Source: Pseudovibrio sp. Alg231-02 (lineage in GTDB: Bacteria; Pseudomonadota; Alphaproteobacteria; Rhizobiales; Stappiaceae). From it: a stretch of DNA of 64,000 nucleotides. The translations under genes were made by a program, and so were the position numbers. The first letter of the stretch is position 1; every line of letters begins with the position of its first letter. Location: the NCBI RefSeq assembly GCF_900143565.1, contig NZ_FREX01000001.1, positions 1,007,068 to 1,071,067 on the forward strand. The letters are read 5' to 3'. Under the pieces are notes generated by a model. That model saw nothing but the letters and a program-made list of their open reading frames with translations, searched no databases and had not been told where the DNA came from. Below are positions 30,810-34,119 of this stretch, one piece after another.

Positions 30810-30840
30810 GCCCTTGCCTTTCTAGGCGGGGGCTTTTTTT
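30810..30840 (+). terminator. Terminator after ccrM
   Basis: GCCCTTGCC and GGCGGGGGC pair with two G-U steps around a 6-nt loop and are followed by T7. Confidence 0.85.
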
Positions 30841-30988
30841 GTTTCACGAGTTTCTGAATGCTGCGTCTACTGAAGGTGAGCAATTAAGGGCTTTAAGCGT
30901 GATGAAGCTGCAACTTCTGCTAATCAGCCTCGCCCTACTTAAAGCCCACGCCCGCATGTCCAGTGAAATAATTAGAAGGTCAGCAAAT

Positions 30989-31861
30989 ATGCCCGTAAAT
31001 ACCCCGATCCCGTTGATAGCAGAGGATCACCTCATTTTCGGTACTATCCGTATCAAAAATGAGCGTTTTGCTTTGCCACAGCTTCCAAGTTCCTATTTCA
31101 TGAATGGGGACAATGAGTTCATTCGTCTGCGCTTGATGCATGCTAACGGCTTCAAGATTATGCCTAGAGAAACAACCACTGTGGTTGCATTTTCGGGGGA
31201 CTGGAACTCACGAGCTTCAATTACAGGTAATACTGAGCCTTATCAGCAGGTCACAAACCAGAGAACACACGCTACTTATTCTGACCAAACCGTAAACTAC
31301 CAGCACGATTACGACTACACTCAGACATTCCGCTATACCGACGACATAATTTTCGCCCCGTTAGGTCACACCAAGACTAATATGCTCACCACAATTGACC
31401 ACCTGAAAAAAAATGAAATCTCACTGAACAATCTGAGGTACAACAATCGAATAAAACAATACCTGCCCGATGGTATTTACTACATGTCTGAAGGCCCGCT
31501 AAGAGGTGCGTTTTTTGGGTGTCATTCCGAAATAACCAACGGCTTACTGACCCCGTTAAATATCGCAGATGCACGAACAGCTTATAGCTCTGTTCATACT
31601 GGTCATACGCTGATTACTCGAGAAGCAATGGTCGCCTTCGTCAACTCACTGCCTCAAGGTTTCTCCAATGCACCCTCGCTTTATCAGGCGGTTTTGCTTC
31701 TTGGTTCCAAGGAACAGAGTTTCCGCGTTTCTCAAAACGGGTTGTTGGGGCCCCTTATGACTGTCGCAACCAACACAAACTATTTTCCAGAGAATATGTT
31801 CAGCAGTCGAGATGAACAGTTCAATGTGGTGAAAAGCTTCATTAATAACTTTGAGGCTTAA
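30989..31861 (+). CDS. Uncharacterised protein (290 aa)
   Basis: A 290-residue protein I do not recognise. The start MPVNTPIPLIAEDHLIFG at 30989 is chosen because GAAGG lies nine bases upstream; in-frame Met codons at 30902 and 30839 would add a hydrophobic stretch that is probably untranslated. The body has aromatic and Asn/Thr-rich segments (YSDQTVNYQHDYDYTQTFRYTDDIIFAPLGHTK) suggesting beta structure, and a C-terminal part with LYQAVLLLGSKEQSF. There is no membrane segment, signal peptide or cysteine pair. It is AT-richer than its neighbours ccrM and tyrS and convergent with tyrS. It may be an acquired gene. No function is proposed. Confidence 0.65.
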   Translation: MPVNTPIPLIAEDHLIFGTIRIKNERFALPQLPSSYFMNGDNEFIRLRLMHANGFKIMPRETTTVVAFSGDWNSRASITGNTEPYQQVTNQRTHATYSDQTVNYQHDYDYTQTFRYTDDIIFAPLGHTKTNMLTTIDHLKKNEISLNNLRYNNRIKQYLPDGIYYMSEGPLRGAFFGCHSEITNGLLTPLNIADARTAYSSVHTGHTLITREAMVAFVNSLPQGFSNAPSLYQAVLLLGSKEQSFRVSQNGLLGPLMTVATNTNYFPENMFSSRDEQFNVVKSFINNFEA

Positions 31862-31915: not shown

Positions 31916-33187
31916 TTAACCGAACTCCACCAGCGCCTTACGGCGCTTGCCAACCGCTAGGGTCAGCCTTTCACCCGGTTTCAGGTCGCCTTCTGAAATC
32001 ACCCGGGTTTCTTCCAGGACGATGGATGTATTCAGACGAACACCGCCGCCGCGGATGAGGTGGCGGGCTTCGCTGTTGGTGGTGGCGAAGCCGGTTTTTA
32101 CCAGCAGGTCCAGGAGACCGAGTGGTTTGGCGAGGAGGGAGAGAGGTAGCTCGTGGGTTGGCTGAGAGAGGTCTTCCTGACCGCTGAACAGAGCTTCTCC
32201 CTGCTGAAGCGCTGCTTCTGCTGCGGCCAGACCGTGGACGATGCCGGTGACTTGTGTTGCCAGTATCTTTTTGGCCTCATTCAGCTCCTGCCCTTGTAAG
32301 GAAGACAGGCGGTCGATTTCGCCCAGTGGTAGATCGGTGAAGAGTTTCAGTAGCCGAGGTACATCAGCATCATCCGCATTGCGCCAGAACTGCCAGAAGC
32401 CGAAGCTGGACAGGCGGGATGGGTTGAGCCACACCGCGCCTTCTGCGGTTTTGCCCATTTTGCTGCCCGAGGCTGTTGTCAGCAATGGCAGTGTGAAGCC
32501 AAAGAGCTGACTGCCTGAGCGGCGTCCAAGGTCCACACCATTGACGATGTTGCCCCATTGATCAGAACCGCCGATCTGCAATGTGCAGTCGAAACGTTGG
32601 TTGAGCTCAACAAAATCAACAGCTTGCAACATCATGTAGCAGAACTCGAGCACGGAGAGTGGTTGTTGTGCCTCAAGGCGGGAGCGGACGCTGTCGAAGG
32701 TCATCATGCGGTTGACGGTGAAGTGCGTGCCGAAGTCCCGCAGGAACTCGAGGAAGCGGAATTCATCCAACCATTCAGCGTTGTTGACGATTTGGCCCTG
32801 TCCTTCAGACAAGTCGAAGAGGCGTTCTACGGTTGCGCGGATACCTACGAGATTGTGTTCTATCTGCGTATCATCCAGCAGTGGTCGGCTTTCGGAGCGG
32901 AAGCTTGGGTCGCCTACGCGCGTGGTACCGCCGCCCACCAACAGGATTGGTTTGTGTCCGGTTTTCTGCAACCAGCGCATGGCCATTAATGGCAGCAGGT
33001 GGCCGACATGCAGGCTGTCAGCCGTTGCATCAAATCCAGCGTATGCTGTGATGGGGCCTGCTTGGAGTTTTTCGTCCAGCGCTTCCAAATCCGTGCATTG
33101 ATGCAGGAAACCGCGATCGATCAGCAGTTGAAGGGCTTCAGATTTGGGACGGAAGCAGCGCGTTGTATCTACCATTGTATGTTTCAT
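31916..33187 (-). CDS. tyrS: Tyrosine--tRNA ligase
   Basis: Tyrosyl-tRNA synthetase (423 residues), a class I enzyme charging tRNA-Tyr. The HIGH-type signature is DSLHVGHLLPLMAM, the tyrosine-binding region includes YAGFDATADSLHVG and CYMMLQAVDFVELN, QIGGSDQWGNIVNG is characteristic, and the KMSKS-type loop is SKMGKTAEG. The C-terminal 60 residues form an S4 RNA-binding domain (EARHLIRGGGVRLN). The ATG at 33187 follows AAGGAG, but that site is locked in an 8-bp hairpin. Upstream lie an intrinsic terminator and a short ORF with three Tyr codons, so attenuation by charged tRNA-Tyr is predicted. Confidence 0.97.
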   Translation of the reverse strand: MKHTMVDTTRCFRPKSEALQLLIDRGFLHQCTDLEALDEKLQAGPITAYAGFDATADSLHVGHLLPLMAMRWLQKTGHKPILLVGGGTTRVGDPSFRSESRPLLDDTQIEHNLVGIRATVERLFDLSEGQGQIVNNAEWLDEFRFLEFLRDFGTHFTVNRMMTFDSVRSRLEAQQPLSVLEFCYMMLQAVDFVELNQRFDCTLQIGGSDQWGNIVNGVDLGRRSGSQLFGFTLPLLTTASGSKMGKTAEGAVWLNPSRLSSFGFWQFWRNADDADVPRLLKLFTDLPLGEIDRLSSLQGQELNEAKKILATQVTGIVHGLAAAEAALQQGEALFSGQEDLSQPTHELPLSLLAKPLGLLDLLVKTGFATTNSEARHLIRGGGVRLNTSIVLEETRVISEGDLKPGERLTLAVGKRRKALVEFG

Positions 33188-33190
33188 AAT

Positions 33191-33215
33191 GCTCTCCTTC
33201 GCCGCGCAGGAGAGC
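33191..33215 (-). promoter_or_regulatory. Hairpin sequestering the tyrS Shine-Dalgarno
   Basis: On the minus strand GCTCTCCT and AGGAGAGC form a perfect 8-bp stem with a 9-nt loop. The 3' arm contains the AAGGAG of tyrS and ends three bases before the ATG. This would limit translation initiation unless the stem is opened; effect is inferred. Confidence 0.7.
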
Positions 33216-33216
33216 T

Positions 33217-33248
33217 AAAACACAAAAGCCGCCTACGCGGCGGCTTTT
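33217..33248 (-). terminator. Intrinsic terminator in the tyrS leader (attenuator)
   Basis: On the minus strand AAAAGCCGCC and GGCGGCTTTT form a perfect 10-bp stem with a GCGTA loop, followed by GTGTTTT. It lies between a Tyr-rich leader ORF and tyrS. A GC-only 7-nt segment at 33288-33294, inside the leader ORF, is complementary to its first arm (33238-33244) and could form a competing antiterminator. Confidence 0.8.
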
Positions 33249-33274
33249 GGTTCTGACCTCAATTTTACATGAGT

Positions 33275-33349
33275 TTATAGGAACGCGGCCGCCGATATGT
33301 CGGGCGCATAATAATAAACCGCAGAAATGATGGTCAGGCTATTGTTCAT
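33275..33349 (-). CDS. Tyr-rich leader peptide of tyrS (24 aa)
   Basis: A 24-codon ORF on the minus strand beginning MNNSLTIISAV, followed by three consecutive TAT Tyr codons (codons 12-14, 33316-33308), then APDIS and ending AAAFL before TAA. It lies 26 bp upstream of the terminator hairpin and 87 bp upstream of tyrS. The codons just after the Tyr run contain CGGCGGC, able to pair with the terminator's ascending arm. A small CCGA/TCGG stem overlaps codons 15-19. It is the expected geometry for ribosome-stalling attenuation. No good Shine-Dalgarno is visible, and the promoter-like elements place transcription start near its ATG, so it may be translated leaderless, as reported for the trp leader of Sinorhizobium. 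Coding function is inferred. Confidence 0.7.
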   Translation of the reverse strand: MNNSLTIISAVYYYAPDISAAAFL

Positions 33350-33354
33350 GCCCA

Positions 33355-33386
33355 AGTGTATGACCGCAACGGCCCTGCCCTGTCAA
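33355..33386 (-). promoter_or_regulatory. Predicted promoter of the tyrS leader
   Basis: On the minus strand a perfect TTGACA (33386-33381) is followed 18-20 bp later by CATACACT as a weak -10. The predicted start is within a few bases of the leader ORF's ATG at 33349. Confidence 0.55.
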
Positions 33387-33420: not shown

Positions 33421-34119
33421 TCAAGCCGTACTTTTGAGCATATTCAGCTTTTTGATGAGACCGGCTAACTCTTTCATATCATTAAAGATTGCCATAGGGT
33501 TTTGCTGTTCAAGGCGGCTGTGTAAATCTGCGTTGCCGTGGGAGGCTCCGGTGAAGCCGAGGGCGGTCATGCCTGCTGCCCGGGCTGCTTGCAAGCCGAG
33601 GTGGCTGTCTTCAACAACAATACATTTTTCGGGAGCGACGCCCATCTCGCTTGCTGCTTTCAGGAACACATCTGGCGCTGGCTTGCCCTTTTCAACCAGA
33701 TCAGCCGAGAAATATTTATTCTCAAACCGATCATATAGATTTGTGAGCTTGAGGGTATGTTCCAGGCGGTCCATGGAACTGCCAGAGGCGATGCACATTT
33801 GCAAATTCGGGAATGAGTTGTCCAACTCATGCAATGCTTCATGGATGCCAGCGATTGGCTTGAGATGCTGCTCAAAGGCTGCCTTTAGCGCCTCATCCTG
33901 ATTTACGATCGCCTCGTGGTGGCGAATGTTGACGCCAATTTCCGCTTCAACCTGGCTGAATACTTCTGCAGATGACACACCGCAGAAGCGGGCGATCATT
34001 TCTTCCGTGCTGATCGGGTATCCAGCTTTGGTGAAGCCTTCGGCCTCGACCTGACAGCCAATCCACTCGCTGTCAATCAAACAGCCGTCGCAATCCCAAA
34101 TGAGTAAATCGTAGTTCAT
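33421..34119 (-). CDS. HAD-superfamily phosphatase (beta-phosphoglucomutase-like)
   Basis: A 232-residue HAD-IA hydrolase. Motif I is LLIWDCDGCLIDSEW with the nucleophile Asp; motif II is CIASGSS; motif III/IV is KPAPDVFLKAASEMGVAPEKCIVVEDSHLGLQAARAAGM. The four-helix cap lies at residues 15-85. It resembles phosphoglycolate, sugar-phosphate or beta-phosphoglucomutase-like enzymes, and the substrate cannot be read from sequence. The ATG at 34119 is preferred over an in-frame TTG at 34131. It is upstream of tyrS on the same strand but separated by the tyrS promoter and leader. Confidence 0.87.
   Translation of the reverse strand: MNYDLLIWDCDGCLIDSEWIGCQVEAEGFTKAGYPISTEEMIARFCGVSSAEVFSQVEAEIGVNIRHHEAIVNQDEALKAAFEQHLKPIAGIHEALHELDNSFPNLQMCIASGSSMDRLEHTLKLTNLYDRFENKYFSADLVEKGKPAPDVFLKAASEMGVAPEKCIVVEDSHLGLQAARAAGMTALGFTGASHGNADLHSRLEQQNPMAIFNDMKELAGLIKKLNMLKSTA

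Follow-up and report, generated by a model that had tools for sequence, protein, structure and literature searches.

What controls the tyrosyl-tRNA synthetase gene tyrS2 of Pseudovibrio sp. Alg231-02, which is preceded by a short ORF with three consecutive Tyr codons and by an intrinsic terminator? The question was addressed in a 64,000-nt stretch of contig NZ_FREX01000001.1 (hereafter "the window"; features are on its minus strand unless otherwise noted), where a first-pass annotation made from the letters alone had proposed a leader-peptide attenuator. On the strength of sequence comparisons and folding models, we put the probability at about 0.9 that a ribosome-mediated transcription attenuator controls this gene, whose product is an auxiliary synthetase (TyrRS2).

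The putative leader promoter consists of a -35 box, TTGACA (33381..33386), and, after a 17-nt spacer, a weak -10 element, TCATAC (33358..33363). It was not called by a generic promoter scan, and is supported because the position of the TTGAC box is conserved in relatives. The leader ORF (MNNSLTIISAVYYYAPDISAAAFL; 33275..33349) comprises 24 codons plus a stop and runs from an ATG at 33349 to a TAA at 33277-33275. Its transcript is probably leaderless, with a predicted start at the ATG or a few nucleotides from it. The three Tyr codons, TAT TAT TAT (33308..33316), are the candidate control codons. From the last of these a hairpin is predicted (regions 1:2; 33283..33309) that contains region 2, CGGCGGC (33288..33294), the complement of the 5′ arm of the terminator. 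The terminator itself (regions 3:4; 33217..33249) has an 11-bp stem at 33249-33223 and a T-rich tail. A predicted long-range helix spans 33253..33337 and pairs the 5′ part of the ORF (33337-33314) with a segment that begins at the stop codon and ends shortly before the terminator (33278-33253). A further hairpin (33191..33215) pairs the Shine-Dalgarno sequence of tyrS2, AGGAG, with CTCCT, and tyrS2 (31916..33187; 423 aa) follows with an ATG at 33187. Converging with tyrS2 is a 340-aa ORF on the plus strand (30839-31861), which had no Pfam or NCBIfam match. Direct reading of the minus strand placed the -35 box, the leader ORF, the Tyr codons and region 2 exactly where the first-pass annotation had put them, and the 10-bp terminator it had reported at 33248-33217 is contained in the 11-bp stem. 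The leader, its Tyr codons, region 2 and the terminator are confirmed as real.

Tyr makes up 2.3% of codons in the long ORFs of the window (some of which may be spurious), and the chance of three consecutive Tyr codons within 24 codons is about 3e-4. Four terminator-like sites were counted in 400 nt, where shuffled sequences averaged 0.5, three of the four being one hairpin counted on both strands or in part. The leader fold had a z of -5.7 relative to shuffles. A HAD-family gene on the same strand ends at 33421, 72 nt ahead of the leader ATG, and the terminator might merely end that gene, with the short ORF arising by chance. However, the leader persists in relatives where the upstream sequence differs (L034 and L039, compared by eye), and its frame and codons are kept in 50/50 loci, which argues against a chance ORF; we give this explanation next to no credence.

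These relatives were drawn from 80 loci, of which 50 carry a tyrS of the window type and 30 are other alphaproteobacterial loci. The 50 are named as Pseudovibrio, Roseibium or Labrenzia, Pannonibacter, one Stappia and three broader groups. The named loci nearest to the window tyrS are from Pseudovibrio, of the family Stappiaceae (99% protein identity). TTGAC[A/T] was found 34-38 nt upstream of the leader ATG in 50/50 named loci, a range partly imposed by the search, which looked for an ATG 33-42 nt away from the TTGAC box. This distance suggests a leaderless or nearly leaderless transcript. Conserved Tyr codons and a conserved terminator were what the annotation had expected to find in relatives, and both are there: an in-frame Tyr/Phe run, counted from the promoter-anchored ATG, was present in 50/50 loci with at least two Tyr in each, and so was a terminator in all 50. 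Runs were counted as YFYY (33), YYY (11), FYY (2), YYF (2), FYYY (1) and FF (1); the single FF is a counting artefact, the script having met an earlier FF ahead of that leader's YFYY. Trp occurred in no leader. The C-terminal residues of the leader peptides are alike in most, and the N-termini vary. The other 30 alphaproteobacterial loci showed no such ORF in the 330 nt upstream, or in as much of that stretch as the locus contained.

T-boxes control tyrS in Gram-positive bacteria, and a tRNA-binding element of this kind, or a metabolite riboswitch, could be imagined to control tyrS2 as well. An Rfam scan of the window leader gave no family at its gathering score and ten weak matches up to E = 10, none of them a T-box; Phe_leader reached 21.4 bits on the leader strand against a cut-off of 55. 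We regard an element of either kind as exceedingly improbable.

In all 51 leaders examined (the 50 loci plus the window), region 2 lies 17 nt from the first base of the run's last codon. The complementarity of CGGCGGC to the first terminator arm, noted in the window by the annotation, is retained throughout, with 6-9 uninterrupted base pairs in 51/51 leaders. The stop codon is less fixed relative to region 2, lying at -2 (4 leaders), +10 (36), +16 (8) or +25 nt (3).

Ribosome positions were modelled with a footprint reaching 18 nt upstream and 13 nt downstream of the A-site codon, and antiterminator pairing was assessed at the point before the 3′ arm of the terminator is made. (An earlier model that masked all RNA upstream of the ribosome was dropped in favor of the footprint model, as it made the stop-codon outcome trivial.) With the ribosome placed on the final codon of the run, modelled antiterminator pairing exceeded 0.5 in 49/51 leaders, the exceptions being L066 and L079; a looser choice of codon for the stall site gave 47/51. 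With the ribosome at the stop codon, pairing exceeded 0.5 in only two of the 51 (L041 and L042); their stop lies 25 nt beyond region 2, which in the model stays unblocked by a ribosome at that position. Thus, the annotation's proposal that a stalled ribosome frees region 2 and a ribosome at the stop codon covers it is borne out by the model in 49/51 leaders for each half. For the window leader, modelled antiterminator pairing was 0.99 when stalled, 0.0 at the stop and 0.0 without a ribosome; in the last case the 1:2 hairpin is predicted to form. Ribosome-free models favored the antiterminator (above 0.5 before the 3′ arm) in 33/51 leaders, and the 1:2 hairpin is therefore probably not dominant in most relatives.

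Applied to the 51 leaders, RNAalifold recovered the terminator, a 3-bp helix and nothing else, and no base pair had changed at both of its positions. Because of this, a swap test was adopted, which used 10 mutually dissimilar leaders out of the 50, treated as independent, so that its counts are not calibrated probabilities. A column-pair covariation list was set aside since it mostly reflected the division between two clades. Compensatory changes in the antiterminator, which the annotation had hoped to see in relatives, did not appear: 0/10 consensus pairs were altered on both sides, and 1728/5000 permutations scored as low in the swap test. Antiterminator and terminator are both nearly invariant, and so covariation cannot support the antiterminator. 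The long-range helix passed the swap test (5/5000, and 1/5000 in a rerun, with reversed controls at 1142 and 1673 of 5000), as did the core of the 1:2 hairpin (23/5000, with a reversed control of 710/5000, and 55 for a wider version). The annotation's CCGA/TCGG stem next to the Tyr codons, suggested as regions 1:2, stands in part. It is present in the window and a 1:2 stem at this place is predicted with swap-test support, but the stem is larger than CCGA/TCGG and starts from the last Tyr codon, and CCGA/TCGG itself is broken or shortened in several relatives (by eye). In several relatives the long-range helix is predicted to cover the start codon of the leader or bases immediately past it. 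It may hide the leader start after one round of translation; a comparable start-hiding idea exists for trpL.

The hairpin over the tyrS2 ribosome-binding site was absent from the first-pass annotation. The Shine-Dalgarno sequence is paired in 46/50 loci as opposed to 45% of shuffled controls, in which single bases were shuffled and only in the stretch ahead of the Shine-Dalgarno. This would be expected if control were mainly translational, with the hairpin setting tyrS2 expression and the terminator secondary. Upstream of that hairpin, however, the terminator, the control codons and their fixed spacing are all conserved. Mainly translational control is rated as quite unlikely.

The product of the window gene is a TyrRS by profile (TIGR00234, NCBIfam tyrS; 366.8 bits, cut-off 113.8) and aligns with solved TyrRSs over nearly all of its own length. 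Two full TyrRS genes occur in the source genome, that of the window and another on contig C24, and they are 49% identical; a third PF00579 match is presumably a TrpRS. Neither a covariance model of the leader nor an upstream scan found a leader at the C24 copy, and the covariance model gave one strong match in the whole genome (111 bits; next 20 bits). Hence the window tyrS is an auxiliary second TyrRS gene and the housekeeping copy is without a leader. The auxiliary status of the gene, and the wider set of aromatic leaders given below, were both absent from the first-pass annotation.

The same association holds through the family. Full TyrRS2 was found in 66 of 87 family genomes and leader-model matches in 67, and by coordinates the leader adjoins tyrS2 in 66/66 genomes with full TyrRS2. 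Among family genomes with one TyrRS there were no leader-model matches (0/20). The 67th match comes from a genome of the same genus (G016) in which tyrS2 has been reduced to a C-terminal remnant; at this relic (L195, C1 3417956-3419055) the leader is degraded (YVYF) and the terminator is still there. Since tyrS2 has been lost in G016 but for that remnant, it appears to be dispensable there. In the upstream scan of TyrRS genes, one housekeeping locus (that of G012) had a leader-like ORF with a terminator, which was taken to be the end of the upstream gene.

This association also bears on whether the leader acts at a distance. It might also, or mainly, yield a trans-acting product, either the terminated RNA or the peptide, as is reported for rnTrpL and peTrpL in Sinorhizobium. 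The trpL gene of S. meliloti is described with the same layout, a short leaderless ORF followed by a terminator (PMC10117765), and the C-terminal residues are alike in most leaders. Yet these residues overlap region 2 and are explicable by RNA pairing, the peptide N-termini vary, and the leader keeps to full TyrRS2 genes and is degraded in the sole genome that lost TyrRS2. We consider a trans-acting role unlikely and retain control of the adjoining gene as the preferred reading.

Outside the family, leaders were sought with the same model in samples of the order and the class. Matches were judged real or chance by eye from the ORF, the promoter and the downstream gene; profile models then served to check the downstream families. 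In the order sample, 12/285 genomes outside the family had matches, 11 judged real aromatic leaders and one (L150) chance. Two of the leaders precede tyrS (G349 and G286), each in a genome with two full TyrRSs and the leader on one. At 28 further TyrRS loci of the order (27 non-family loci together with L183, from the single-TyrRS family member G004), none had an aromatic ORF and a terminator together. In the class sample, 30/385 genomes had matches; setting the window aside, 29 remained, of which 11 were accepted as real and 18 put down to chance. A single new tyrS leader was among them, in G580, which likewise has two TyrRSs. When 30 TyrRS loci were scanned, the ORF and terminator occurred only at the auxiliary copy of G580; among the genomes listed with two TyrRS matches, the analysis covered G000 and G580, with G480, G488, G497, G543 and G664 lying outside it.

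In a tree of 82 TyrRSs, the 16 leader-bearing proteins (13 from the family, 3 from as many lineages outside it) all lie to the same side of a branch supported at 97/92; the tree is unrooted, includes no outgroup from another class, has some long branches and omits L104 and L111 (incomplete genes). A quick tree of 79 TyrRSs gave the same branch a support of 90, not starred.

Related aromatic leaders precede other genes. Two trpS genes have WW leaders (L207 of G553, IWWRSF, and L248:1309-1359 of G286, VWWRSF), with a hairpin directly after the Trp codons; G286 thus has leaders of this type at a tyrS and at a trpS. G553 and G286 each have further PF00579 genes, and the leader-bearing trpS genes are putative second copies. 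A prephenate/arogenate dehydrogenase gene in G552 (L204) has a GTG-started leader with tandem Tyr codons (YY) and a terminator. Mixed F/W/Y leaders precede class I DAHP synthase at six loci (L142, L143, L145, L146, L149 and L202), and mixed Phe/Trp/Tyr leaders precede class II DAHP synthase at three (L210, L216 and L217). These DAHP synthase genes belong to other Alphaproteobacteria and also have a terminator, and their leaders look as if they sense all three aromatic amino acids. GNAT acetyltransferases of several lineages have Y/W/F leaders at seven loci (L147, L148, L151, L153, L198, L200 and L205) and show no obvious match between codons and gene. An Rfam scan of 13 related loci, including L142, L146, L202 and L210, returned no family. 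Elsewhere in the set, a WYF leader (L201) precedes a 116-aa protein that had no Pfam or NCBIfam match and that, compared by eye, looks like the S4 portion at the C-terminus of TyrRS. Except for the GNAT genes and L201, the predicted control codons fit the amino acid of the gene, and this fit is the strongest indirect argument for the mechanism.

From the observed parts, their conservation, their spacing and the link to TyrRS2, we infer translation of the leader, stalling and a response to tyrosine, as follows. A near-leaderless transcript would begin at the leader ATG. When Tyr-tRNA is scarce, a ribosome would stall on the Tyr codons and occupy region 1, leaving region 2 exposed; free region 2 (CGGCGGC) would then pair with the 5′ arm of the terminator and polymerase would continue into tyrS2. 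When Tyr-tRNA is ample, the ribosome would reach the stop codon and cover region 2, the terminator would fold, and termination would release a leader RNA of about 130 nt. Phe shortage could act as well, given the Phe codons in most runs.

A literature search, which covered few subscription papers, found no leader-peptide attenuator described for tyrS. Attenuation of synthetase genes is already known or predicted, and tyrS is an addition to it; the main survey of proteobacterial attenuators is said to be that of Vitreschak in 2004. Vecchione and Sello in 2010 reportedly described trpS1, an auxiliary, antibiotic-resistant TrpRS gene, as being under ribosome-mediated attenuation. The organism was Streptomyces coelicolor. 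Like tyrS2, trpS1 is a second synthetase gene under its own leader; unlike it, trpS1 is actinobacterial and encodes a TrpRS, and the antibiotic resistance belongs to trpS1. Bacillus subtilis resembles the window genome in having two TyrRS genes, tyrS and tyrZ, with tRNA-dependent control, which unlike that of tyrS2 is reportedly by T-box together with a MarR regulator. The pheST leader differs from that of tyrS2 in its Phe codons, and we know of no second synthetase copy involved there.

The gamma-proteobacterial pheST operon is given as a synthetase operon under leader-peptide attenuation, and Streptomyces trpS and leuS as known or predicted cases, in the passages concerned of PMC1262725; bacilli hisS is given likewise in the corresponding part of PMC2965389. 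B. subtilis tyrZ guards against D-Tyr, according to the relevant portion of PMC9437257. The uORFC-8-2 motif before cysS of Rhodobacterales is a predicted ribosome-mediated attenuator and resembles the tyrS2 leader in its alphaproteobacterial synthetase gene, tandem cognate codons and terminator; it differs in its Cys codons and in its gene, cysS, and neither a second copy nor a leaderless start is reported in the section describing it (PMC8632094). A putative translated leader CDS was seen by ribosome profiling ahead of Caulobacter crescentus trpS, likewise an alphaproteobacterial synthetase gene although trpS rather than tyrS (PMC4117421). S. meliloti trpL shares with the tyrS2 leader a leaderless alphaproteobacterial ORF plus attenuator, and differs in that Trp and a biosynthesis gene, trpE, are involved and that RNA and peptide also act in trans (as set out in the part of PMC10117765 on trpL).

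Because a housekeeping TyrRS lacking a leader of this kind is also present, TyrRS2 is likely a reserve enzyme, induced when the housekeeping enzyme cannot keep tRNA-Tyr charged. More tentatively, and with somewhat less than even confidence, we suggest that Alphaproteobacteria hold a separate auxiliary lineage, TyrRS2, and a parallel TrpRS2 with WW leaders, each with its own leaderless attenuator, as inducible reserves, probably as a defence when natural inhibitors or toxic analogues act on the housekeeping TyrRS and TrpRS. The locus would extend leader-peptide attenuation to tyrosine, to tyrS and to a spare synthetase that can be lost. In the related leaders the codons mostly agree with the amino acid of the gene, be it Tyr, Trp or, at the DAHP step common to the aromatic pathways, all three; the set thus offers a natural experiment in deducing what a gene does from the codons of its leader, in which the acetyltransferases are a puzzle. 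Should TyrRS2 be such a reserve, there may be TyrRS inhibitors, not yet known, that marine Stappiaceae encounter.
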